Assembly: GCF_024734385.1 (NCBI RefSeq)
Contig: NZ_JANHAP010000003.1
Location: forward strand, 62,001 to 126,000
Length of the DNA stretch: 64,000 bases
DNA from: Dasania sp. GY-MA-18
Lineage (GTDB): Bacteria; Pseudomonadota; Gammaproteobacteria; Pseudomonadales; Dasaniaceae
Reading direction: 5' to 3'
Shown here: in pieces, positions 1,924-33,119 of the stretch
How the letters are laid out: each line of letters opens with the position of its first letter
Position numbering within the stretch: the first letter of the stretch is position 1
Program-made: the position numbers and the translations under genes
Notes under the pieces: generated by a model
Database searches by the model: none
The model's input: the letters and a program-made list of their open reading frames with translations, nothing else
What the model was told of the DNA's origin: nothing

Positions 1924-4089
1924 ATGGATGTTTCTCATATACTCAACGATTTAAACGACGCTCAACGGCAAGCTGTTGCGGCGCCTCCTTCTAATATGCT
2001 GATACTGGCTGGTGCTGGTAGCGGTAAAACCCGCGTGCTGGTACACCGCATAGCCTGGCTGATACAAGCTGAAAATATGGCCCCGCAGGGCATATTGGCG
2101 GTGACCTTTACCAATAAGGCCGCAAGGGAAATGCGCGAGCGCATAGACGAGCTGCTTAATATCCCCACCCGCAGTATGTGGGTGGGTACCTTTCACGGCT
2201 TGGCTCACCGCCTGCTTAAGGCGCACTGGCAAGATGCGGGGCTGCCGCAAAATTTTCAAATCCTGGATTCTGATGACCAGCTGCGCATTATCAAGCGTAT
2301 ACACAAAGAGCTGGCCTTGGATGAAACGAAATGGCCACCCAAGCAATCACAGTGGTTTATTAATGGCCAAAAAGACGAGGGTAAGCGCGCCGCCCATATA
2401 GAGGTGTACGGCAACGACCTGTACCAAAAAACCATGCTGGCGGTATACCTGCAATACGAGCAGGCCTGCGAGCGCCAAGGGGTGGTGGATTTTGCCGAGC
2501 TATTGCTGCGCGCCCATGAGCTGTGGTTAAAAAATCCGCGCTTACTGGCCCACTACCAACAGCGCTTTCAGCATATCTTGGTAGACGAGTTTCAAGATAC
2601 CAATGCCGTGCAATACGCCTGGCTACGGGTATTGGCGGGTAAGCAAATCCCCATCGCGGCGGTAGGTGATGACGACCAGTCTATCTACGGCTGGCGCGGT
2701 GCCAAAATAGAAAACATACAGCAGTTCGCCCGCGACTTTGCCAACACCCAAGTGATAAAGCTGGAGCAAAACTACCGCTCCACTGCCACCATATTGGGGG
2801 CCGCCAACGCGGTTATCGCCAATAACACCGAGCGCCTAGGTAAAGAGCTGTGGACCGAAGGTGGCGAAGGTGAACCCATTTCGCTATACACCGCCTTTAA
2901 CGAACAAGACGAAGCTCGCTTTGTGGTAGAGCGCATAGAAGAGTGGGTGAAGCAGGGCGAGCTGCGCGCGCAGTCGGCCATTTTATATAGGTCAAACGCC
3001 CAGTCGCGGGTATTGGAAGAGGCTTTGATTCGCGCCGGCATGCCCTACCGCATCTATGGCGGCCAACGCTTTTATGATCGCCTGGAAATTAAAAACGCCC
3101 TGGCCTATATGCGGCTGATTAATAATCGCCACGACGATACTGCCTTAGAGCGAGTGATCAACACACCCACCCGCGGCATAGGCGGCAAAACCGTAGACGT
3201 GGTGCGCAGCTATGCCCGCGAGCACGGCAGCTCCATGTGGCAGGCGCTGGCTAATGTGGTAGAGCAAAAGCTGCTGCCCGCCAGAGCCAGCAATGCGCTA
3301 TTGGCTTTTGTTGCATTGATCGATAGCTTAGATAGCGGCACCGACGAGTTAAGCTTAGATGAGCTGGCCGATGAGGTGATTAAAAGCTCAGGCCTAATAG
3401 AGTTTCATAAAAAAGAAAAAGGCGAAAAAGGCCAGGCGCGGGTAGAAAACCTGCAAGAGCTAGTCGTAGCCGCCAAACAATTTGATGCCAGCGATGAAGA
3501 GCTATCACCGCTGCAGCAGTTTTTAGATGAGGCCGCACTGGATGCCGGTGAGCAACAAGCCGATGAATATGAAGACAGCGTGCAGCTAATGACCCTGCAC
3601 TCGGCCAAAGGCTTAGAGTTTCCCTTAGTGTGTTTAGTCGGCATGGAGGAAAACCTCTTCCCCCATAAAATGTCCATGGACGAAGCGTCAGGCATAGAGG
3701 AAGAGCGCAGGCTGTGTTACGTAGGGATTACCCGCGCCATGCAAAAGCTCTACCTTAGCTATGCAGAGTCGCGCCGCATGTATGGCAATGAAAACTTTAA
3801 CGCACCTTCGCGCTTTATACGTGAGATCCCCACCGAATACGTGGAGGAGGTGCGGTTAAATACAACCATTAGCCGCCCAGCCAGTTATGCGCCAGCGGTG
3901 AATGGCAACGGCTACGATGTGCCGGGCACCGGCATAAGCTTGGGGCAGCCAGTATTTCATCAAATTTTTGGCAGCGGCACCGTGGTTAATTTTGAAGGCC
4001 AGGGCAGTAGCGCCAGGGTGCAAGTCAATTTTGATGATGAGGGAAGCAAATGGTTGGTGCTGCAATATGCCAATCTTGAAGCTTTGTGA
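1924..4089 (+). CDS. uvrD: DNA helicase II (UvrD)
   Basis: The 721-residue superfamily 1A helicase matches E. coli UvrD in length and along the whole sequence. Walker A is GAGSGKT at residues 30-36, Walker B is DEFQD at 221-225, and the VGDDDQSIYGWRG motif starts at 247. LMTLHSAKGLEFP and the RLCYVGITRA motif come later. The C-terminal region resembles the UvrD Tudor-like RNA-polymerase-binding tail. UvrD unwinds DNA 3'-5' in nucleotide excision and mismatch repair. No LexA-type box was seen upstream. The last bases overlap a possible GTG start of the next gene, suggesting read-through into the downstream run. Confidence 0.97.
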   Translation: MDVSHILNDLNDAQRQAVAAPPSNMLILAGAGSGKTRVLVHRIAWLIQAENMAPQGILAVTFTNKAAREMRERIDELLNIPTRSMWVGTFHGLAHRLLKAHWQDAGLPQNFQILDSDDQLRIIKRIHKELALDETKWPPKQSQWFINGQKDEGKRAAHIEVYGNDLYQKTMLAVYLQYEQACERQGVVDFAELLLRAHELWLKNPRLLAHYQQRFQHILVDEFQDTNAVQYAWLRVLAGKQIPIAAVGDDDQSIYGWRGAKIENIQQFARDFANTQVIKLEQNYRSTATILGAANAVIANNTERLGKELWTEGGEGEPISLYTAFNEQDEARFVVERIEEWVKQGELRAQSAILYRSNAQSRVLEEALIRAGMPYRIYGGQRFYDRLEIKNALAYMRLINNRHDDTALERVINTPTRGIGGKTVDVVRSYAREHGSSMWQALANVVEQKLLPARASNALLAFVALIDSLDSGTDELSLDELADEVIKSSGLIEFHKKEKGEKGQARVENLQELVVAAKQFDASDEELSPLQQFLDEAALDAGEQQADEYEDSVQLMTLHSAKGLEFPLVCLVGMEENLFPHKMSMDEASGIEEERRLCYVGITRAMQKLYLSYAESRRMYGNENFNAPSRFIREIPTEYVEEVRLNTTISRPASYAPAVNGNGYDVPGTGISLGQPVFHQIFGSGTVVNFEGQGSSARVQVNFDDEGSKWLVLQYANLEAL

Positions 4090-4118: not shown

Positions 4119-5273
4119 ATGAATAATAAGATGATGAAAAAAAGCCTAAATCTCACCCCCGCAATTATATTGTTATTAGTGGCGGCGGTGGTGGCGCTAA
4201 GTAGCCTATTGGTAATAGAGCGCAGCCAAAAAATTCTCGGTAAACAGGATCAAAAATCTGAGCTACAACAGGGTAGCCGAGAGGTTATAGAGTGGAAGTT
4301 GGTCACCTCTTGGCCAAAAAACTTTCCCGGTTTGGGCAACGGCCCAGAAGTATTTGCCAAAGCAGTAGAGCAAGCCAGCAATGGCCGCTTAAAAATTCGC
4401 GTCTACGGCGCTGGTGAGTTGGTACCTGCCTTGGGGGTGTTTGATGCGGTGTCGCAGGGCACTGTGCAAATGGGCCATTCAGGGGCCTATTATTGGAAAG
4501 GCAAAGCTCAGGCTGCCTCATTTTTCACCTCCATCCCCTTTGGTATGAATGCCCAAGAGATGAATGGCTGGCTGCACTATGGTGGTGGCTTGGAATTGTG
4601 GCAGGAGCTATACGCGCCCTTTAATATTATCCCCATGGCTGGGGGCAACTCCGGCACCCAAATGGGCGGCTGGTTTAATAAAGAAATAAACTCCCTAGCC
4701 GATATCAAAGGCCTGAAAATGCGCATACCCGGTATGGGGGGTGAAATTTTTAGCCGGGTGGGTGGTACCGTGGTGAATTTACCCGGTGGTGAACTTTATA
4801 CCGCCCTGCAAACCGGTGTCATCGATGCCACCGAATGGGTGGGGCCCTATAATGATAAGGCCTTTGGCCTGCATGAGGTGGCTAAGTATTATTACTACCC
4901 AGGCTGGCATGAGCCGGGTTCTAACCTAGAGTTTTTGATTAATAAAACCGCTTTCGAGACTCTGCCTGCAGACTTACAAGCTATAGTTAAAATTGCTGGC
5001 CGCTATGCTAACCAAGATATGCTGGATGAATATACCGCCAGAAATAATGCCGCCTTAGTGGAACTTAGTAAAAATCCCAACATCAGTATTCGTCAATTTC
5101 CCGATGACGTGATCAGAGCGCTAAAAGCCGCTACCGAGCAATATATGCAAGAGATTACTCAACAAGACCCAATGACCAAAAAAGTTTACCAGTCCTGGAA
5201 GCGCTTCGCCGAGGGCGTGAAAAATTATCACCATGTTTCAGAACAGGCATATATCAATGCCCGGGATTTATAA
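4119..5273 (+). CDS. TRAP transporter solute-binding protein, TakP-like
   Basis: This is a DctP-family periplasmic receptor of TRAP transporters. Patterns such as SWPKNFPGLG, GAYYWKGKA, GTQMGGWFNKEIN and WVGPYND closely resemble TakP, the alpha-keto-acid (pyruvate) receptor of Rhodobacter, so a 2-oxoacid ligand is likely. The N-terminus has one long hydrophobic segment with no clear cleavage site, so the protein may be membrane anchored. Starts at 4119, 4131 and 4134 (ATG) and 4086 (GTG, overlapping uvrD) are all possible. No permease gene is adjacent. DctQ/DctM subunits lie 26 kb away at 30778-32669. Its stop is one base from the next gene's ATG. Confidence 0.85.
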   Translation: MNNKMMKKSLNLTPAIILLLVAAVVALSSLLVIERSQKILGKQDQKSELQQGSREVIEWKLVTSWPKNFPGLGNGPEVFAKAVEQASNGRLKIRVYGAGELVPALGVFDAVSQGTVQMGHSGAYYWKGKAQAASFFTSIPFGMNAQEMNGWLHYGGGLELWQELYAPFNIIPMAGGNSGTQMGGWFNKEINSLADIKGLKMRIPGMGGEIFSRVGGTVVNLPGGELYTALQTGVIDATEWVGPYNDKAFGLHEVAKYYYYPGWHEPGSNLEFLINKTAFETLPADLQAIVKIAGRYANQDMLDEYTARNNAALVELSKNPNISIRQFPDDVIRALKAATEQYMQEITQQDPMTKKVYQSWKRFAEGVKNYHHVSEQAYINARDL

Positions 5274-5274
5274 G

Positions 5275-5958
5275 ATGATGTCAACTTGCCGGCCTTTTAC
5301 ACTTATCTTGCTGTCGCTACTGCTATCGGCTTGTAGCCTATTTGAGCGCCAGCCCGAGCCAGCTACCCCGCAGCCAGCGGTAGTGGAAGTGGTTCCGCAA
5401 GAGCCCGCAGCCGCACAGCCGCAGGCTCCAGAAATAAGCAGCTGTGAACAACCCATAGTGAAAGAGGTGATTAAATACGTAGAGAAAGCATGCCCCAGCC
5501 AACAAAAATCTATAGTCAAAAAAGCTAAAGCCGCCATGGTTGGTGAAAAGCAGGTGATAGGGCGGGTGGAATACGTCAGCATCAACAATAATGGTATAGC
5601 GATTAAATCGCGTATCGATACCGGCGCTAAAACCTCATCATTGAATGCACAAGATTTATCCGAGTTTGAACGCGATGGCAAAAAGTGGGTGCGCTTTGCA
5701 GTGCTCAACCCCAAAAATGACGAAGAAATATACTTTGAAAAAAGAGTAGTGCGCTTTGTGCGTATTAAGCAGCAAACCGGTGATTTGCAACGTAGGCCGG
5801 TGATTAAAATGCCAGTCAAATTAGGGGATGTTACCGAGAATATTGAGCTAACCTTAACCGATAGAAGCGATTACCTCTATCAAGTGTTAGTGGGGCGTAA
5901 TTATTTATTAGATCGTTTTTTAGTAGACGTTAGTCAAAAATACACGGCTAAAAAATAG
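5275..5958 (+). CDS. Lipoprotein with retropepsin-like (ATP-dependent zinc protease family) domain
   Basis: The 227-residue product starts with a lipoprotein signal ending in the lipobox LSAC. A Pro/Glu/Ala-rich linker and a basic stretch follow. The C-terminal domain of about 130 residues contains IDTGAKTSSL, with Asp115 as the likely catalytic aspartate. This is the family often named ATP-dependent zinc protease or RimB-like (PF05618), which has a single-lobed retropepsin fold. The ATG at 5275 follows the previous stop by one base and gives a good signal peptide. An ATG at 5257 is less likely. Families of this kind commonly stand beside 7TM-transglutaminase and ATP-grasp genes, as here. The substrate is unknown. 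Confidence 0.85.
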   Translation: MMSTCRPFTLILLSLLLSACSLFERQPEPATPQPAVVEVVPQEPAAAQPQAPEISSCEQPIVKEVIKYVEKACPSQQKSIVKKAKAAMVGEKQVIGRVEYVSINNNGIAIKSRIDTGAKTSSLNAQDLSEFERDGKKWVRFAVLNPKNDEEIYFEKRVVRFVRIKQQTGDLQRRPVIKMPVKLGDVTENIELTLTDRSDYLYQVLVGRNYLLDRFLVDVSQKYTAKK

Positions 5959-5969
5959 GATTATTGCGT

Positions 5970-7505
5970 ATGTCACCACGCGCTCAGGTTTACCTGCTAG
6001 GCCTTTTGCTGATTATTATGGGCCTGGGATTAATGGCTTATAAAAGTGAAATGCTAAGCATGCCGGTGAAGCCCGGTGAATATGCCACAGTATGGACCGT
6101 AGAAGCCAAAGTAGGGTTTACCGCAGATGGTGGTGCAGTCAAAGTCTCGCTGGCCTTACCTAAAAATCAAAATAATATGGAAGTGATAGAAGAACTGTTT
6201 AGCAGCTCAGGCTATGGCTTTAATATTTATGATAATGCAGGGCATAAGCGCGCCGAGTGGACTAAGCGCATGGCCAGCGGTAAGCAAACGCTGTATTACA
6301 AATTAGATGTTTATAAACGCCCTTCCGGCGAGGGCCTGCCAGAATTTGATGCCAGTAAAATGCGCGCCAAACCCAATTGGCAGGGTGAGCGCCAAGAAGC
6401 CTTACGCAATGCCGCGGCTTCGATTATTAACAACAGCTGGCAGACCTCCTCCAATAAAGAAAGCTTTGCCAGGCAGTTACTCAAGTCATTAAATGATAAG
6501 TCCAATAACGACGCTAGGCTTATACACAACAACTTGCCCGATAAAAAAACAGTAGATATTGCCTTAGACCTACTGTCATTGGCGGAAATTCCAGCGCATA
6601 TCATTCGCGGTATTTATCTAGAAGATGATAGAAACCGTATGAGCGCCGATGCCCTAGTAGAAATATTTGATGGTGAAAAGTGGATAGTGTTTAGCCCTAA
6701 TACTGGTGCTAAAGGCTTGCCCGATAATTTTTTAGTGTGGCAGCGTGGCGATGTTTCTATGTTGGATGTGGCAGGCGGCAGCCGTTCAGCGGTTAGTTTT
6801 TCAGTGTTAGCCAATGATGTGCCAGCGCGCAAAGTTGCCCTAGAGCAAATGGGTGGTGAGCAAGCGGCATTATTAGATTATTCGATTTATAGCCTGCCTA
6901 TAGAGCAGCAAAGTGTTTTTAAATTTATCTTATTGGTGCCTATAGGGGCTCTTATCGTGATTTTTTTACGGGTGGTTATAGGTATACGCACCGCCGGTAC
7001 TTTTATGCCCGTACTGTTAGCCATAGCGTTTATACAAACCCATCTATTAAACGGCGTGTTAATTTTTTTGTTAATACTAAGCATAGGTTTATTTGTGCGC
7101 TCATACCTAAGCCGCTTAGATTTATTGCTGGTAGCACGCATAGCGGCGGTGGTAGTAATAGTGGTTTGCTTGATGTCGTTTATCAGCATAGTCAGTTTTA
7201 AATTGGGGGTAGAACAGGCACTAACGATTACGTTTTTCCCTATGATTATCATCGCTTGGACTATAGAGCATATGTCCATCTTGTGGGAAGACGACGGCCC
7301 CATGGAAGTGCTAATTCAAACGGCGGGCAGTTTATTAGTAGCGATTATGTGCTACCTGGCTATGACCAACCATTACATAGAACATTGGATGTTTAACTTC
7401 CCCGAACTGTTATTCACCCTCTTGGGTATGATTATTATCTTAGGCCACTATACCGGCTATAGGATGTCAGAGCTGCTGCGTTTTCGCTATATGAGGCGTT
7501 CGTAA
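5970..7505 (+). CDS. 7TM protein with inactive transglutaminase-like domain
   Basis: The 511-residue membrane protein has an N-terminal helix (about 7-25), a long extracytoplasmic region (about 30-305) of the inactive-transglutaminase type, and a C-terminal block of about seven hydrophobic segments (about 310-500). This layout fits the UUP1 / 7TM_transglut families. In those families the transglutaminase fold lacks the catalytic triad and probably binds peptide. The ATG at 5970 is preferred to the upstream TTG at 5964 because AGGA lies 9 bp before it. The stop is directly followed by the ATG of the ATP-grasp gene. It may hold or present the substrate of the neighbouring ligase and protease at the inner membrane. 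Confidence 0.82.
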   Translation: MSPRAQVYLLGLLLIIMGLGLMAYKSEMLSMPVKPGEYATVWTVEAKVGFTADGGAVKVSLALPKNQNNMEVIEELFSSSGYGFNIYDNAGHKRAEWTKRMASGKQTLYYKLDVYKRPSGEGLPEFDASKMRAKPNWQGERQEALRNAAASIINNSWQTSSNKESFARQLLKSLNDKSNNDARLIHNNLPDKKTVDIALDLLSLAEIPAHIIRGIYLEDDRNRMSADALVEIFDGEKWIVFSPNTGAKGLPDNFLVWQRGDVSMLDVAGGSRSAVSFSVLANDVPARKVALEQMGGEQAALLDYSIYSLPIEQQSVFKFILLVPIGALIVIFLRVVIGIRTAGTFMPVLLAIAFIQTHLLNGVLIFLLILSIGLFVRSYLSRLDLLLVARIAAVVVIVVCLMSFISIVSFKLGVEQALTITFFPMIIIAWTIEHMSILWEDDGPMEVLIQTAGSLLVAIMCYLAMTNHYIEHWMFNFPELLFTLLGMIIILGHYTGYRMSELLRFRYMRRS

Positions 7506-8459
7506 ATGTTATTTGTCTGGCCCAAAGAGCTAAAACAGCTGGGCTTATTGGGCATGAACAGCCGCAATATTAATTATATTGCCAGGCATAATCCTAGGCA
7601 TTTATACCCAATTGTTGATAATAAATTACTCACCAAAAAAGCTGCTATAGATGCGGGCATACGAGTACCAGAGTTACTAGGGGTAATAGAAAGCAACCAC
7701 GAACTGAGCAAGTTGCCACAGCTATTAGCACCCTTAACCCAGTTTGTAATTAAACCTACCCGTGGCAGTGGCGGTAAAGGCATATTGGTGATTAGTGGCC
7801 GCGAGTTTGATTTTTTTCTTAAAACCAATGGCAGCAAAATTTTACAAAGTGATATACGTCGCCATGTAAATAATATTCTAAGTGGCCTCTATAGCTTGGG
7901 CGGCAAGCCTGATAAAGCCATGATAGAGGCCATGATTCAATATGACGATATCTTCAATGAGTACACCTACGAAGGTGTGCCCGACCTGCGTGTAATCGTG
8001 TACAAGGGCTTTCCTATTATGGCCATGCTGCGCTGTGCCACCCACTCGTCAGATGGCCGCGCTAATTTACACCAAGGTGCCATAGGGGTGGGTATAGATA
8101 TACTCACGGGTAAAAGCCAATACGCGGTGCAGCATGGTAGGCCAGTCACTGAGCACCCCGATACCGGCAAAAGCTTTAAGGATTTAAGCATACCCTATTG
8201 GCAGGAAATATTACGCTTAACGGCGGGCTGCCATGAAATGACCGGCCTGGGTTACATAGGTTGCGACATAGTCATTGATAAAGAGCAGGGCCCCATGATT
8301 TTAGAGCTAAACGCGCGCCCGGGCTTGGCGATACAACTGGCCTGTGGTTTGGGCTTGGAAAAGCGCCTATCCTTTATAGACCGCCTAAGCACGGAAGTGA
8401 TGGAACAAGATGCCGATAAACGAGTCTCCTTTTTAATGAGCAATCAATTTCAAGAGTAA
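7506..8459 (+). CDS. Alpha-L-glutamate ligase-like protein (RimK-type ATP-grasp)
   Basis: The 317-residue ATP-grasp enzyme has the nucleotide-binding loop VIKPTRGSGGKG at residues 81-92 and a metal/ATP-binding LELNARPG at 266-273. The family is related to RimK and other amino-acid ligases that make an amide bond through an acyl-phosphate. The true acceptor and amino acid are not known for this branch. Start and previous stop abut with no gap, so translation is coupled to the 7TM protein. Together with the retropepsin-like lipoprotein it forms a trio conserved in many Proteobacteria. Confidence 0.87.
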   Translation: MLFVWPKELKQLGLLGMNSRNINYIARHNPRHLYPIVDNKLLTKKAAIDAGIRVPELLGVIESNHELSKLPQLLAPLTQFVIKPTRGSGGKGILVISGREFDFFLKTNGSKILQSDIRRHVNNILSGLYSLGGKPDKAMIEAMIQYDDIFNEYTYEGVPDLRVIVYKGFPIMAMLRCATHSSDGRANLHQGAIGVGIDILTGKSQYAVQHGRPVTEHPDTGKSFKDLSIPYWQEILRLTAGCHEMTGLGYIGCDIVIDKEQGPMILELNARPGLAIQLACGLGLEKRLSFIDRLSTEVMEQDADKRVSFLMSNQFQE

Positions 8460-8490
8460 TTAGCGCGACTTAGCGCCAGAGGGCCTAGCT

Positions 8491-9111
8491 ATGATTACGG
8501 TATACGGAGCAGCACAAACTAGAGCGACACGCATAAGCTGGATACTGGAAGAGTTAGAACTGGCTTACCATTTTGAGGCCATAGACTTTAGTAAGGGCGA
8601 GCATAAAAGCGAGGCGTTTTTAGCCATAAACCCCGCAGGTAAAGTGCCCGTTATAAAGTTGGATGACTTTGTAATGACGGAGTCGGCGGCCATAGTGAGC
8701 CACCTGGCCGAGCGTTACAGTAATGGCCAGCTGATCCCTTTTCCTGCTACCGAGCAGCGTGGAAAATATCAGCAGTGGTGTGACTTTGTGATTAGCGAAT
8801 TAGAACAACCGCTATGGACTATGGCTAAACATCGTTTTGCTTTGGCTAAAGAACTAAGAGTGGCGGCAGTCATAGATACCGCCGCTTGGGAGTTTCAACA
8901 AGCCCTGGGCCTATTAAGCCAAGGCTTAGCAGAACAGGATTATATTTTAGGGGCAGAGTTTAGTGCTGCCGATATATTAATAGCTCACACTTTATTATGG
9001 GCGCAGGCTTTTAAACAGCCCATAGGTCAAGACAATCTACAGCGCTACTTGCAGCGCTGCCAACAGCGCCCAGCTTTGGCCAGAGCTATAGAGAAAGAAG
9101 CTCATCAATAA
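8491..9111 (+). CDS. Glutathione S-transferase family protein
   Basis: The 206-residue protein has a thioredoxin-like N-terminal half (about 1-77, including NPAGKVPVIKLDD and the glutathione-site motif TESAAI) and an all-helical C-terminal half with FSAADI near residue 155. The usual role is conjugating glutathione or binding hydrophobic ligands in the cytosol. The substrate cannot be read from the sequence. It sits 31 bp after the ATP-grasp gene and 14 bp before the AstE-like gene, so it is probably transcribed with them. An AGAGGG ribosome binding site lies upstream. Confidence 0.87.
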   Translation: MITVYGAAQTRATRISWILEELELAYHFEAIDFSKGEHKSEAFLAINPAGKVPVIKLDDFVMTESAAIVSHLAERYSNGQLIPFPATEQRGKYQQWCDFVISELEQPLWTMAKHRFALAKELRVAAVIDTAAWEFQQALGLLSQGLAEQDYILGAEFSAADILIAHTLLWAQAFKQPIGQDNLQRYLQRCQQRPALARAIEKEAHQ

Positions 9112-9125
9112 ACTTTGTAGGATGT

Positions 9126-10757
9126 ATGTTTAATAAACCGAATTTTGTAAAAAGTGGCTTGTATTCAGCCTTGTTTCTATCAGGCCTGCTACAGGCACAG
9201 GACACAGTTGAAACTTCAGCACTTATAGTTGCCGCTGCTCAACAGAGTACAGCCATAGCCGATGAGCCAGCCGCTAAGAGCAGCGAAAAGCCCGCCCCCA
9301 AAAAGCATAAGCAGGCCGCTAGGGCCGTGGATCTAGCTAAACCTATCAGCATAGAAGAAGTGGCATTGCCACAGGCTGAAAAAATTGAGGCTAGCAAAGC
9401 AGAGCCCGTCAGCAAAAAACAAAAGCCTATCACTGTAGCCAAACCTGAAAAACTAGAGGCTGTGGTAGAGGACAAGGAATATACGGCCAAGCAGCAATTA
9501 ATTGCGGAGCCCGAAGCTGTAGCAGTCACTAGCAATAGCAGCAAAAAAGTGAAAGCAGCTATAGCTGTGCAAGCACCAAGCTCCGGCAATGATGAGAAAA
9601 ATACGGCAGAAAAAAATGTGGTTGAAGCAAGTAACGAAGCCGTTAACAAAATCATACCCTCAATAGAGTCAGCGCTAAACACAGCCAAACAACAACAAGC
9701 TGCGCTGGATGAGCCCTTAGTTATTTTAGATACGGAAATTCCACCAGCAACAGCCACACGACTGGCATGGACCCCCGATCAATCCTTTAAAGGTATAGCC
9801 ATACCCACACCAGTGTTGGTGGTAAACGGGGCTAAACCGGGGCCAGTTGTTTGTTTAACAGCTGCTATACACGGCGATGAACTTAATGGCATAGAAATCG
9901 TAAGGCGTGTGCTTTATAACTTAAAGCCAGAAAAATTGACTGGCACAGTTATAGGCGTGCCCATCGTCAACTTGCAGGGCTTTCATCGCAACTCTCGCTA
10001 TCTGGCTGACCGCCGCGATTTAAACCGTTATTTCCCCGGCAACCCGGCAGGTAGTTCGGCTTCACGTTTGGCCTATTCATTTTTTAATGAAGTCATTTCC
10101 CACTGTGATGCCTTGGTGGATTTACACACTGGCTCGTTTTATCGCACTAACCTACCGCAGCTGCGAGCTAATACTAAAAACCCTAAGGTATTGGCATTAG
10201 CTAAACAGTTCGGTGCCACCGTTATTGTGCATGGCAAAGGTGCACCCGGCACCTTACGCTGGGCTGCGGTGCAGGCAGGCATCCCCGCGGTTACCTTAGA
10301 GGCTGGTGAGTCCATGCGTTTGCAAGTGGCTGCGGTAGAGCATGGGGTAAAAGGTATAGAAACCTTATTAGAACAAAAAGAGATGCTACACAGTTTAAAG
10401 TTTTGGAAAACCACCGAGGCCATTTACGAACAAACCCTATGGGTGCGCGCTGATCAAGGGGGTATATTATTTACCAGAGTATCAGAGGGCGATAGGGTTA
10501 AGGCGGGTGATGTACTAGGGGTGGTAACTGACCCTATCACCAATGCCAGCAGTGAAATTATTGCGCCTTTTAAGGGCCGAGTTATAGGTTTGGCACTTAA
10601 CCAAGTGGTGATGCCAGGTTTCGCTACTTTTCATTTAGGAGTAGAGGCAGCTAATCTCATAAAGCCTGAACTTATAGACGAATATAATGGTGTAAACCCT
10701 GTGCCCGATACCGAAAGCGTAGATGAAACCATTACCGAGTTGGAAGATTTTAACTAA
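9126..10757 (+). CDS. Periplasmic succinylglutamate desuccinylase/aspartoacylase-like zinc hydrolase with long linker
   Basis: The 543-residue product has a signal peptide (about 1-24), then about 180 residues rich in Ala, Lys, Glu and Pro, then an M14-like AstE/AspA catalytic domain (from about 215). Likely zinc ligands are His249 and Glu252 in HGDE and His334 in DLHTGSF. A C-terminal beta-rich segment (about 440-510) is typical of AspA/AstE relatives. The family cleaves N-acyl or amide bonds of acidic amino acids. The linker is much longer than in cytosolic AstE and suggests reach across the periplasm. Position at the end of the ATP-grasp run suggests it removes or trims what the ligase adds. 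That is inference. Confidence 0.8.
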   Translation: MFNKPNFVKSGLYSALFLSGLLQAQDTVETSALIVAAAQQSTAIADEPAAKSSEKPAPKKHKQAARAVDLAKPISIEEVALPQAEKIEASKAEPVSKKQKPITVAKPEKLEAVVEDKEYTAKQQLIAEPEAVAVTSNSSKKVKAAIAVQAPSSGNDEKNTAEKNVVEASNEAVNKIIPSIESALNTAKQQQAALDEPLVILDTEIPPATATRLAWTPDQSFKGIAIPTPVLVVNGAKPGPVVCLTAAIHGDELNGIEIVRRVLYNLKPEKLTGTVIGVPIVNLQGFHRNSRYLADRRDLNRYFPGNPAGSSASRLAYSFFNEVISHCDALVDLHTGSFYRTNLPQLRANTKNPKVLALAKQFGATVIVHGKGAPGTLRWAAVQAGIPAVTLEAGESMRLQVAAVEHGVKGIETLLEQKEMLHSLKFWKTTEAIYEQTLWVRADQGGILFTRVSEGDRVKAGDVLGVVTDPITNASSEIIAPFKGRVIGLALNQVVMPGFATFHLGVEAANLIKPELIDEYNGVNPVPDTESVDETITELEDFN

Positions 10758-12981: not shown

Positions 12982-14109
12982 TTAAGTGGCCTTAAAGGGC
13001 AGATGTTTGCTGCACTGCAGTTTATAACGCTTTAACTCAGTTGTTTCCTGCTGTAAAAACTGTTGTATCGCGTGGGCAAAGTCTGGCTGGGCTAGCCAGT
13101 GGCTGGAATGTGTGTCTACGGGCTGAAAGCCGCGCTGTATTTTATGTTCGCCCTGCGCCCCGGAGTCAAAGCGTTGTAGGCCTCGTTCTATGCAAAACTC
13201 TATGCCTTGATAATAGCAGGCTTCAAAGTGCAGCTGCTCTAGCTCTTCACTGCAACCCCAGTAGCGGCCGTAAAGGCTGTGGCTGTCAAAAAAATTTAGC
13301 GCACCGGCAACAATATCTTGGTCTTTACGGGCTATCACCAACATTATCTGGTCAGCCATGGAGCTGGCGATGCGTTTAAAAAAATCTTGTTTTAGATAGC
13401 CGCCGTGGCCGCTGCGCTTGGCGTAGGTGAGCTGATAAAAATAATAAAACTGCTGCCAAATTTCTTCGCTAATTTCATTTCCGCTTAGCCGCTGCAAGCT
13501 TATGCCTTGCTGTTTAACACTGCGCCGTTCTTTGTTAAGGGTTTTGCGTTTACGAGATTTAAACTGCGCCAAAAAATCATCAAAACAAGTATAGCCCTGG
13601 TTAAACCAGTGAAACTGTACACTGCTGCGGGCCATAAACGGGGCGTTAAAGTGATTTGCTTGGCTGTGGTATAGCACATGTACAGATGAGGCTTGTAACT
13701 GTTGCGCCTGCGCGATGAGTTGTTGCCCCACCGCCTCGTACAGGGCCGCTGCATCACTATCGGGGTGTATGCACAGCCGTGGCCCGGTTGCGGGGGTGAA
13801 GGGTATAGCGGCTAGTAACTTGGGGTAATAGTTATAGCCATGGCGCTGGTAAGCCTCGGCCCAGCTCCAATCAAAAATATATTCGCCGTAGGAGTGTTGC
13901 TTAATATACAGGGGCATCACCGCGACTAGCTGCTCAGCTTGGTATACGCATAGATGATGAGGTTGCCAGCCGGTTGCTACCGCCACCGAGCCACTGAGCT
14001 CTAGGGCCGCTAAAAAAGCGTGGCGGGTAAAAGGGTAATCGCTGTGGACTAAACTGTCCCATTGCTGGGCGCTAATCTCGCTAATGCTGTGCAGATAACG
14101 AAACTCCAT
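12982..14109 (-). CDS. FemAB/GNAT-like acyltransferase (DUF482 family)
   Basis: The 375-residue protein fits the peptidogalycan biosynthesis/recognition family (DUF482), which is built on GNAT/FemAB-like folds. Recognisable pieces are MPLYIKQHSYGEYIFDWSWA, RSSVQFHWFNQGYTCFDDFL and the C-terminal GAQGEHKIQRGF with HSSHWL. Function in this family is not established. A role in transferring an acyl or aminoacyl group is inferred from the fold. The ATG at 14109 (MEFRYL) lies 10 bp after the ubiA stop. An ATG at 14148 would overlap ubiA. The gene order places it at the end of the ubiC-ubiA run. Confidence 0.72.
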   Translation of the reverse strand: MEFRYLHSISEISAQQWDSLVHSDYPFTRHAFLAALELSGSVAVATGWQPHHLCVYQAEQLVAVMPLYIKQHSYGEYIFDWSWAEAYQRHGYNYYPKLLAAIPFTPATGPRLCIHPDSDAAALYEAVGQQLIAQAQQLQASSVHVLYHSQANHFNAPFMARSSVQFHWFNQGYTCFDDFLAQFKSRKRKTLNKERRSVKQQGISLQRLSGNEISEEIWQQFYYFYQLTYAKRSGHGGYLKQDFFKRIASSMADQIMLVIARKDQDIVAGALNFFDSHSLYGRYWGCSEELEQLHFEACYYQGIEFCIERGLQRFDSGAQGEHKIQRGFQPVDTHSSHWLAQPDFAHAIQQFLQQETTELKRYKLQCSKHLPFKAT

Positions 14110-14119
14110 AGCGATCGGC

Positions 14120-15007
14120 TTAGCTGGCAAATAAAGGGGGCAGGGCATAATCCAGTGCTATGCCGATAAAAATAGCCATACCCACCCAGTTGTTATTTAA
14201 AAAAGCTTTAAAACAATTATTTCTTTCACGTAGCTTAATTAATTGTTGCTGGTAGATAAAAAAGCCTGCCGCGATGATTAAACTTAAATAAAAATACGCC
14301 CCCAACTTAAACTGCTGGCCCACTAAGCACAGGGTGAAGATAACGCAGGCTTGCAGGATTGCGGTGATGGTTTTGTCGTCCTCGCCAAATAAAATAGCGG
14401 TGGATTTTACCCCTATCCTAAGATCATCATCCCTATCTACCATGGCGTAAAAAGTGTCATAGACTATGGTCCATAGCACGGCAGCAATATAGACCAGCCA
14501 TAATATAGCGGGCAGGCTGTTGGTTTGGGCGGCAAAGGCCATGGGTATGCTCATGGCAAAGGCCATGCCTAATACCAGCTGCGGCATATGGGTGTAGCGC
14601 TTCATAAAGGGGTAGCAGCTGGCCAGTGCTAGCGCTGCAAAAGACAGCTGTATGGTGAGGGTATTAGTAAACAGCACTAGCACAAAAGACAGCAAGCACA
14701 GCAGCACAAAAAACCCTAGCGCCTGTTTACTGCTAATACGGCCGGTGGCCATAGGGCGTTGGGCGGTGCGTTTTACATGGCCATCAATGTGCCTGTCGGC
14801 ATAGTCATTAATAATGCAGCCGGCCGAGCGCATTAAAAAAGTGCCTAGGCAAAAAATAATAAGCAGTTTCAAATCGGGTATGCCTTGCGCGGCAAGCCAC
14901 AAGGCCCATAGCGTGGGCCACAGCAATAAATAAGTGCCCACCGGTTTATTAAAGCGTATTAAAGCAAGGTAGTCGGGGGCGTGGCTGCGTAGTTGGGCAA
15001 GCGTCAT
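14120..15007 (-). CDS. ubiA: 4-hydroxybenzoate polyprenyltransferase
   Basis: The 295-residue integral membrane prenyltransferase carries both Asp-rich motifs of the UbiA family: NDYADRHID at 67-75 and YDTFYAMVDRDDD at 183-195. About eight hydrophobic segments are present. It attaches the polyprenyl tail to 4-hydroxybenzoate, the second committed step of ubiquinone synthesis. It follows ubiC by 42 bp on the same strand, so substrate production and use are probably co-transcribed. Confidence 0.96.
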   Translation of the reverse strand: MTLAQLRSHAPDYLALIRFNKPVGTYLLLWPTLWALWLAAQGIPDLKLLIIFCLGTFLMRSAGCIINDYADRHIDGHVKRTAQRPMATGRISSKQALGFFVLLCLLSFVLVLFTNTLTIQLSFAALALASCYPFMKRYTHMPQLVLGMAFAMSIPMAFAAQTNSLPAILWLVYIAAVLWTIVYDTFYAMVDRDDDLRIGVKSTAILFGEDDKTITAILQACVIFTLCLVGQQFKLGAYFYLSLIIAAGFFIYQQQLIKLRERNNCFKAFLNNNWVGMAIFIGIALDYALPPLFAS

Positions 15008-30777: not shown

Positions 30778-31308
30778 ATGGCCTTTCTTTATACCCTGCA
30801 ACAAATGATAGATCGTTTTAGTCTGCTTAGTGGCCGTATACTGAGCTTGGTCAGTTTACTGATGATGCTCACGCTCAGTACGGTGGTGGTATTGCGCTAT
30901 GGTTTCAACCTAGGGTTTATAGCTCTGCAGGAGTTGGTGAGCTACCTGCACGCCTCGGTCTTTATGCTGGCCACGGCCTATACCCTGCAGCAAGACGGTC
31001 ATGTGCGGGTAGATATTTTTTACAGGCACTTTAGCCCCAGAGCTAAGGCCTGGGTGAACAGCCTGGGAGGTTTGGTTTTTTTACTGCCCTTGTGTGGCTA
31101 TTTTGTGCTCAGTAGCTGGGAGTTTGTGCTGCAAGCCTGGGCTATTAAAGAGGGCTCCGCTGACCCCGGCGGCCTACCGGCAGTATTCCTGTTAAAAACA
31201 TTGATTCCTATGATGGCTATTAGCTTGGCCTTGCAGGCGGTGGCGGAAATACTGCGCAATGCCCTGCTGCTGGTTACCACTACCGCCGAGCCGGAGGCCA
31301 GCGCATGA
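30778..31308 (+). CDS. TRAP transporter small membrane subunit (DctQ family)
   Basis: The 176-residue protein has four hydrophobic segments and the DctQ-type motif around TAYTLQQDGHVRVDIFYRHF (about 64-83). It pairs with the large subunit to form the membrane part of a TRAP importer. The stop overlaps the start of dctM by 4 bp (ATGA). No solute-binding gene is adjacent, which is unusual. The nearest DctP is the TakP-like protein at 4119-5273. Confidence 0.9.
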   Translation: MAFLYTLQQMIDRFSLLSGRILSLVSLLMMLTLSTVVVLRYGFNLGFIALQELVSYLHASVFMLATAYTLQQDGHVRVDIFYRHFSPRAKAWVNSLGGLVFLLPLCGYFVLSSWEFVLQAWAIKEGSADPGGLPAVFLLKTLIPMMAISLALQAVAEILRNALLLVTTTAEPEASA

Positions 31309-32669
31309 TAGAGCTAATTCCCCTGCTGATGTTTGTAGTGGTGTGCCTGGTGTTAATGCTGGGCTATCCAGTGGCCTTCTCGTTGGCGGGTACGGCGCTG
31401 ATCTTTGCTGGCGCCGGCATTATAGGCGGGGTGTTTGATCCCGCAGCCTTAAGCGCCTTGCCCAATCGCCTATTTGGCACCATGAACAATATCACCTTAA
31501 TGGCCGTACCTTTGTTTGTGATGATGGGGGTGATGTTAGAGAAGTCGCGCATAGCCGAAGAGCTATTAGACAATATGGCCAGTTTATTTGGCAGCCTGCG
31601 TGGCGGCCTTAGCATCTCGGTAGTGGTGGTAGGCATGTTGCTGGCAGCCAGCACCGGTATTGTCGGGGCTACGGTGGTAACTATGGGTTTAATGTCACTG
31701 CCCACTATGCTGAAGCGCGGCTATGACCCCAAGCTGGCCACCGGGGTGATATGCGCCACCGGCACCTTGGGGCAAATCATTCCGCCTTCCATCGCCTTGG
31801 TATTGCTAGGGGATATACTTTCTAGCGCCTATCAGCGTTCACAATTAAGCCGTGGTGTATTTGCTCCCGAAACCATGTCGGTGGGGGATTTATTTATAGG
31901 AGCACTGGTACCGGGTGTGGTTTTAGTGCTGCTATATGTAGGCTATGTGTTTATTTACGCGCAGCTTAAACCGCAGGCCGCACCCGCCATGGCGAAACAG
32001 GCGGTAGATTTTACTAAGCTGGGCAAGGGCTTATTGCCTCCGGTGCTACTAATAGTAGTGGTGCTGGGTTCTATTTTGGCGGGGGTGGCTACGCCCACAG
32101 AGGCTGCGGCCATAGGTGCCTTAGGTGCGACTTTGCTAGCGGCGGCCAAGGGCCAGCTCAGCCGCCAGCGCTTAGCGGAAGTGGCCGACGGCACGGTCAA
32201 AGTGACCTGCATGGTGTTTATGATTTTAATGGGCGCGGCAGTGTTTTCTATCGTGTTTCGTGGTTTTGGCGGCGAAGAGCTGATTCATCATTGGTTTGCC
32301 ACCATGCCCGGCGGCGTTATGGCCGCGACCTTGGTGGTGATGGTGGTGATCTTCTTATTGGGTTTTATACTCGATTTTATAGAGATCACCTTTGTGGTCG
32401 TGCCTATTGTGGCACCCATACTACTTAATATGGGGGTAGACCCTATCTGGTTGGGCATTATGATTGCCGTGAACCTGCAAACCTCCTTTTTAACACCGCC
32501 TTTTGGTTTTGCTTTGTTTTATTTACGGGGGGTGGCGCCAGAGTCAGTTCACACGGCTGACATATATAAAGGCGTTATCCCTTTTGTTGTTATACAACTT
32601 TTACTATTATTGGCGCTGGCCTGCTACCCTGAATTGGCCACGTGGCTGCCAGCAATAATGAAGCAATAA
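31305..32669 (+). CDS. TRAP transporter large permease (DctM family)
   Basis: The 454-residue protein with about 12 hydrophobic segments is the ion-coupled channel subunit. Family signatures include VPLFVMMGVMLEKS, TGIVGATVVTMG, GTLGQIIPPSIALVLLGD and NLQTSFLTPPFGFALFYLRG. The extended loop after IALVLLGD is seen in the TakM-like subgroup, which supports pairing with a TakP-like receptor. Overlaps dctQ by 4 bp. Confidence 0.93.
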   Translation: MIELIPLLMFVVVCLVLMLGYPVAFSLAGTALIFAGAGIIGGVFDPAALSALPNRLFGTMNNITLMAVPLFVMMGVMLEKSRIAEELLDNMASLFGSLRGGLSISVVVVGMLLAASTGIVGATVVTMGLMSLPTMLKRGYDPKLATGVICATGTLGQIIPPSIALVLLGDILSSAYQRSQLSRGVFAPETMSVGDLFIGALVPGVVLVLLYVGYVFIYAQLKPQAAPAMAKQAVDFTKLGKGLLPPVLLIVVVLGSILAGVATPTEAAAIGALGATLLAAAKGQLSRQRLAEVADGTVKVTCMVFMILMGAAVFSIVFRGFGGEELIHHWFATMPGGVMAATLVVMVVIFLLGFILDFIEITFVVVPIVAPILLNMGVDPIWLGIMIAVNLQTSFLTPPFGFALFYLRGVAPESVHTADIYKGVIPFVVIQLLLLLALACYPELATWLPAIMKQ

Positions 32670-32714
32670 CAAAACAATAAAGAAAATTTAACACCTACAT
32701 CTACCGGATTATTT

Positions 32715-33119
32715 ATGAACGCTAATAGCGACCTAGACGACCAAGCCCCCACGCCCAATGGCGATTTAATGCTGCAAACAGTAGCCATGCCTGCTGATAC
32801 CAACCCCGCAGGTGATATTTTTGCCGGTTGGCTAGTGTCACAAATGGATATAGCAGGTGCCATTAAAGCGGTTAACGTCACCCACACCCGGGTAGTGACA
32901 GTAGCTATAGATAGCATGCATTTTTTAACCTCGGTACGCATAGGCTCAGTAGTGAGCTGCTATGCCGAAGTCGTTGAGGTGGGTCGCACCTCGGTGCGGG
33001 TAAAAATGGAAGTATGGATTGATTACCACAACAGCCCCGAGCCTATAAAAGTAACTGAGTGTGAAATCGTTTACGTATCGGTTAACCCCCAAGGCCAAAC
33101 CGTTCCTATAGAACAATAA
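32715..33119 (+). CDS. yciA: Acyl-CoA thioesterase, YciA-like hotdog protein
   Basis: The 134-residue hotdog-fold enzyme closely matches YciA: TVAMPADTNPAGDIFAGWLVSQMD pattern near 19-42 (with the catalytic Asp in GDIFAGW), RVVTVAIDSMHFL and a final VYVSVNPQG. It hydrolyses acyl-CoA thioesters in the cytosol. It follows the TRAP genes by 45 bp but is not functionally tied to them by sequence. Confidence 0.92.
   Translation: MNANSDLDDQAPTPNGDLMLQTVAMPADTNPAGDIFAGWLVSQMDIAGAIKAVNVTHTRVVTVAIDSMHFLTSVRIGSVVSCYAEVVEVGRTSVRVKMEVWIDYHNSPEPIKVTECEIVYVSVNPQGQTVPIEQ

Follow-up and report, generated by a model that had tools for sequence, protein, structure and literature searches.

An RloABC-like operon in Dasania sp. 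GY-MA-18 with an exported AstE-type hydrolase as its probable partner

The rlo operon protects Pseudomonas aeruginosa from hypoosmotic stress (Lormand et al., mBio 2025, PMC12239564). It comprises three genes, for an exported retropepsin (RloA), an inactive transglutaminase with seven transmembrane helices (7TM; RloB) and a cytosolic ATP-grasp enzyme (RloC). RloA cuts runs of glutamate from 8 residues upwards and not those of 6 or fewer; triple loss of rloA is lethal at low salt and is rescued by additional loss of rloB or rloC, and rlo mutants show cell-shape and beta-lactam phenotypes (PMC12239564). Rlo influences how Pseudomonas tolerates osmotic stress, how it forms biofilms and how sensitive it is to antibiotics. 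Two other described systems resemble it. Poly-alpha-glutamate is made by RimK and cut by RimB (PMC11957791), and the cyanophycin pathway combines an ATP-grasp synthetase with a first peptidase and with a hydrolase of the AstE type, CphZ-type enzymes, found via gene neighbourhoods, completing degradation (PMC10206079). Here we analyze a 64,000-nucleotide stretch of the gammaproteobacterium Dasania sp. GY-MA-18 (RefSeq assembly GCF_024734385.1, contig NZ_JANHAP010000003.1, positions 62,001 to 126,000; hereafter the window), which carries relatives of RloA, RloB and RloC together with an exported AstE/AspA-type zinc hydrolase that, with its orthologues, we call AstE1.

The three Rlo-related genes lie on the plus strand and all pass their Pfam cut-offs. 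The rloA-like gene (5275-5958) encodes a 227-aa retropepsin lipoprotein (PF05618, 131.5 bits) with the active-site motif DTGA, the rloB-like gene (5970-7505) an inner-membrane protein with inactive transglutaminase and 7TM parts (PF14400, 153.7 bits; PF14402, 339.7 bits), and the rloC-like gene (7506-8459) a cytosolic ATP-grasp ligase (PF14397, 304.9 bits; TIGR02291, alpha-L-glutamate ligase-like, 420 bits with a cut-off of 314). Families, gene order and compartments agree with those in P. aeruginosa, and the trio is the RloA-RloB-RloC set described there (PMC12239564). Of the 78 loci in the window's order that have a regular RloB, 75 carry the trio as one unbroken block: RloC comes after RloB every time, and RloA before it in 75. 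A reading made earlier from the sequence alone (the sequence-only reading) had called the trio a known conserved set of unknown product; conservation holds, and the function is now partly known from the 2025 genetics in P. aeruginosa.

The NCBIfam models for RloA1, RloA2, RloA3 and RloB are narrow ‘exception’ or ‘equivalog’ models. Because their cut-offs are missed, by the retropepsin (best matches RloA3, RloA2 and RloA1; 109.5 of 210 bits) and by the transglutaminase-7TM protein despite a full-length match to the RloB model NF052267 (366 of 900 bits), we use the names RloA-like and RloB-like and do not treat the proteins as equivalogs. Solved relatives of the retropepsin are 9g58, 9g59 and 2pma. 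When it is aligned with 9g58, the aspartate of DTG is kept, as are arginines 66 and 89 positions further on (in RRPVI and TDRS), matching the spacing of the RloA residues D48, R114 and R137 that serve in catalysis and poly-glutamate contact (PMC12239564 numbering). Its N-terminus is hydrophobic with the lipobox LSAC, an export signal by motif and hydropathy reading that sets it apart from RimB. The ATP-grasp protein is likewise distinct from RimK, scoring just 18 bits with the RimK equivalog model against 420 bits with TIGR02291. A probe with PF14403 returned unrelated ATP-grasp genes on a different contig.

AstE1 is encoded at 9126-10757 on the same strand (PF24827, 145.6 bits with a cut-off of 25). 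We scored orthologues at a threshold of at least 340 bits and the presence of RloB by PF14402. Among 146 genomes of the window's order, AstE1 occurs in 44, all of them inside the 86 with PF14402, and among 281 genomes of the class it occurs in 17, all inside the 65 with PF14402. The hypergeometric probability of this co-occurrence in the order is 1e-13 for genomes, 1e-7 for genera and 2e-5 for families, figures in which shared ancestry is incompletely corrected. In 11 of the 16 other class genomes, AstE1 and rloB are no more than about 7 kb apart, and in 8 of those 11 AstE1 comes straight after rloC in the same orientation, usually with a short gap or overlap. At other linked loci (L061, L131, L200, L223 and L229) it is divergent from rloA, upstream and co-directional, or convergent. 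On a tree of 52 AstE1 sequences, the linked state changes eight times, so linkage has been repeatedly gained or lost. We conclude that AstE1 is very probably a partner of Rlo at the gene level, and the grouping of an AstE-like hydrolase with the trio in the sequence-only reading is upheld by the presence of RloB in every carrier (44 of 44 in the order, 17 of 17 in the class) and by adjacency in many lineages. The published P. aeruginosa operon lacks any mention of such a hydrolase. RloABC is already known, and AstE1 as its fourth partner may be new; literature searches, with Iyer et al. 2009 (the source of the Pfam family names, where AstE-type neighbours may have been noted) outside them, found no paper linking an AstE-type enzyme with Rlo or RimK. 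In one locus on a contig titled Deltaproteobacteria, an AstE1 match that was not called as an open reading frame accompanies an RloB-like protein, and AstE1 and RloB have possibly spread past the gammaproteobacteria.

The AstE1 protein has a long low-complexity linker (about residues 25-195) followed by a catalytic core (about residues 200-510), in which the metal-site and catalytic residues of the HxxE...H...E pattern (H249, E252, H334 and E392) are invariant. An export-type hydrophobic N-terminus was present in 22 of 22 AstE1 proteins in the first set examined and in 0 of 19 members of AstE2, a paralogue described below; when the set was enlarged, using starts that were called mechanically, 83 of 93 AstE1 proteins passed the same measure, which is a hydropathy reading and not a signal-peptide predictor. 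The predicted model of the core (mean predicted local distance difference test score 89.7, predicted template modeling score 0.87) matches DoeB/AspA-type hydrolases best (Z 31-34; 3cdx, Z 34), followed by CphZ (Z 27.6), and aligns with AspA, DoeB and CphZ over about 300 residues including the C-terminal beta domain. Weaker matches are Csd4 (Z 19, about 190 residues aligned), MpaA (Z 17) and CCP5, a deglutamylase (Z 17-19). The nearest relatives in fold and sequence, with the same metal-site motif, are DoeB/EutE and aspartoacylase-type enzymes (3cdx, 6twm). They nevertheless differ from AstE1 in being soluble cytosolic deacylases with 24-25% core identity, and in their arginines. Arg340, Arg347 and Arg378 are invariant or nearly so across AstE1 and AstE2 and are absent from the aligned DoeB-type 3cdx sequence; these extra residues, a sequence feature short of proof, would suit a multiply acidic substrate. 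Assignment as a true AstE or DoeB was rejected on the equivalog cut-offs (TIGR03242, 24.7 of 305.65 bits; TIGR02994, 70.1 of 402.7 bits).

AstE1 and its paralogue AstE2 (about 350 aa) are sister clades with support of 100. AstE2 adjoins RimK in 16 of 19 loci and shares a stretch with RimB in 14 of 19. In the Dasania genome itself, the order is RimK (equivalog score 455 bits), AstE2, a small MscS-like protein and RimB (L113, 6313-11468 of contig C18), and the row ends with a GAF-domain phosphoenolpyruvate phosphotransferase. A small MscS-like gene stands near AstE2 in four loci (L113, L114, L121 and L129) and close to a single AstE1 (L137). That a glutamate-ligase cluster should contain a gene resembling mechanosensitive channels fits the osmotic theme. 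The RimK-AstE2-RimB cluster resembles the Rlo set with AstE1 in bringing together an ATP-grasp glutamate ligase, a retropepsin and an AstE-type hydrolase, and differs in being cytosolic, in lacking RloB and in that RimK modifies ribosomal protein S6 (RpsF). The combination of ligase, retropepsin and AstE-like hydrolase thus occurs twice, once in the cytosol and once in the envelope, which would make the RimK-RimB-AstE2 set a second system for the same chemistry.

We lean towards a reading in which an RloABC operon is joined by a secreted AstE1 that completes the breakdown of an acidic peptide. RloC in the cytosol would make an acidic, glutamate-rich chain, either free oligo- or poly-alpha-glutamate or a glutamyl tag, and RloB would pass this chain to the periplasmic side or hold it there. 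The RloA lipoprotein would make the first internal cuts, and AstE1, located in the periplasm or in the outer envelope, would hydrolyze the short leftovers or remove the final residues singly. By the parallel with RimK and RimB and from the chemistry of RloA, AstE1 would thus deal with the pieces too short for RloA. What we observe is gene content, co-occurrence and linkage, together with the compartment signals, the conserved active sites and the RimK-AstE2-RimB parallel; we infer by analogy the product of RloC, the transport or anchoring role of RloB and the substrate of AstE1. CphZ (8ein; PMC10206079) offers a precedent as an AstE/AspA-type enzyme of the same fold that completes the degradation of a polyamino acid which an ATP-grasp ligase has made, but it has 15% identity to AstE1 and acts on beta-Asp-Arg dipeptides from a cytosolic Asp/Arg storage polymer. 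Drawn from such analogies, a glutamyl-trimming chemistry for AstE1 seems to us evenly balanced between right and wrong. We offer more tentatively, as the somewhat less probable case, the wider idea that an envelope cycle of poly-glutamate or of a glutamyl tag has AstE1 as its dedicated terminal hydrolase and that the matched triads RimK-RimB-AstE2 (cytosol) and RloC-RloA-AstE1 (envelope) represent a glutamylation-deglutamylation module that is general in bacteria. The make-and-trim cycle that the sequence-only reading had proposed agrees, for an acidic peptide, with the published RloA chemistry (PMC12239564). AstE1 has a tractable enzyme fold and provides a biochemical handle, as its substrate would largely identify the product of RloC.

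Several observations weigh against this reading. In the window's order, AstE1 is mostly unlinked to rlo, lying near it in 5 of 44 genomes (four lineages). About half of the RloB-positive genomes of the order have no AstE1, which makes it non-essential to Rlo. RloA copy numbers do not differ significantly between AstE1-positive and AstE1-negative genomes (2.07 versus 2.12, p 0.78), so that the idea of compensation by additional RloA copies in genomes without AstE1 was dropped. AstE-type folds, moreover, act on numerous substrates. The prevalence of unlinked AstE1 genes and the relatedness of the compared genomes, which makes the p-values overstate independence, could mean that the tie to Rlo is merely statistical, arising from shared lifestyle or lineage, with AstE1 serving another envelope pathway. 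We consider this quite improbable, given that AstE1 carriers fall wholly within RloB carriers in both samples, that linkage recurs in varied orientations, that co-occurrence stays significant after collapse to genera and families, and that the TRAP receptor gene dctP, taken as a control in the same genomes, is only weakly tied to RloB (odds ratio 2.2). An AstE1 that acts on peptidoglycan-derived peptides, for example as a gamma-D-Glu-meso-diaminopimelate amidase or an L,D/D,L-carboxypeptidase, with Rlo regulating the cell wall and not poly-glutamate, would account for the mutant phenotypes in cell shape and beta-lactam response and for the resemblance to Csd4 and MpaA. The longer alignments with AspA, DoeB and CphZ, the cytosolic sister AstE2 beside the poly-glutamate maker RimK, and the cutting of poly-glutamate by RloA itself make such a role unlikely. 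Nor do we expect, although deacylases of the DoeB and AspA kinds are the top relatives in sequence and fold, that AstE1 is a deacylase or desuccinylase taking a non-glutamyl acyl or amino-acid cap off the RloC product, in editing or unmasking rather than trimming: its DoeB and AstE equivalog scores are far under cut-off, and the three arginines shared with AstE2 are not matched by arginines in the aligned DoeB-type sequence.

Another possibility concerns the tripartite ATP-independent periplasmic (TRAP) receptor DctP (4119-5273, plus strand; PF03480, 207 bits; NF037995, 71.4 bits with a cut-off of 50), which might import or sense an acid made or released by the Rlo cycle. It is TakP-like, as the sequence-only reading had recognized, with relatives in the Protein Data Bank that include 4pet, 5cm6, the ketoacid-binding 7ug8 and TakP itself (2hzk), 7ug8 and 2hzk scoring 277-298 bits. 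A 2-oxoacid receptor of this kind would suit such a role, as would the placing of its gene, co-directional with rloA and 1 bp from it both in the window and in a sister species, and the rlo trio between uvrD and dctP in one genome (G024, locus L108). Synteny points elsewhere. In all 20 of the other genomes inspected, RloB-less ones included (G061, G027, G054, G003, G008 and G009), dctP adjoins uvrD, and it is retained by about 30 genomes of the order that have no RloB. The adjacency of dctP and rlo is therefore explained by uvrD-dctP synteny, which exists with or without rlo, and we rejected DctP as an Rlo component; the functional link proposed earlier fails on its neighbourhoods, and a role for DctP in the Rlo cycle is now highly improbable. 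It belongs to a separate uvrD-dctP/dctQM set, at whose uvrD-dctP site rlo has likely arrived, leaving dctP a neighbour. The genome encodes a single DctM (31305-32669), which has dctQ and a thioesterase-like gene as neighbours, and dctM is close to uvrD-dctP in about half of the 20 genomes. This plus-strand block of dctQ, dctM and the thioesterase-like gene (30778-33119), which adjoins uvrD-dctP in related genomes, is the probable permease partner of dctP, separated from it here.

The position after uvrD-dctP is possibly a hotspot for insertions. In locus L164 (genome G143), a 160-aa retropepsin of the RimB/RloA family sits directly behind dctP, beside uvrD, with the rlo trio on another contig. 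The glutathione S-transferase (GST) gene between rloC and AstE1 (8491-9111, plus strand; PF02798/PF00043) had also been counted with the set. Among the order loci, a strong GST match at this position occurs just in L093, which is of the window's genus, so we rejected GST as a component and regard it as probably a genus-specific passenger. With AstE1, it is what the window adds to the three-gene operon of P. aeruginosa.

uvrD ends at 4089, and dctP begins 29 bp further on. Given the starts used, the gaps from dctP to AstE1 are 1, 11, 0, 31 and 14 bp, exactly the spacings and plus-strand orientation claimed previously, although the block from uvrD to 10757 holds six genes and not five. Promoter and terminator scans of the block gave numbers near those from shuffled sequence. 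On the minus strand, 2.2 kb from AstE1, a FemAB-like protein (12982-14148; PF04339, 506 bits) is possibly a peptide-bond-forming envelope enzyme.

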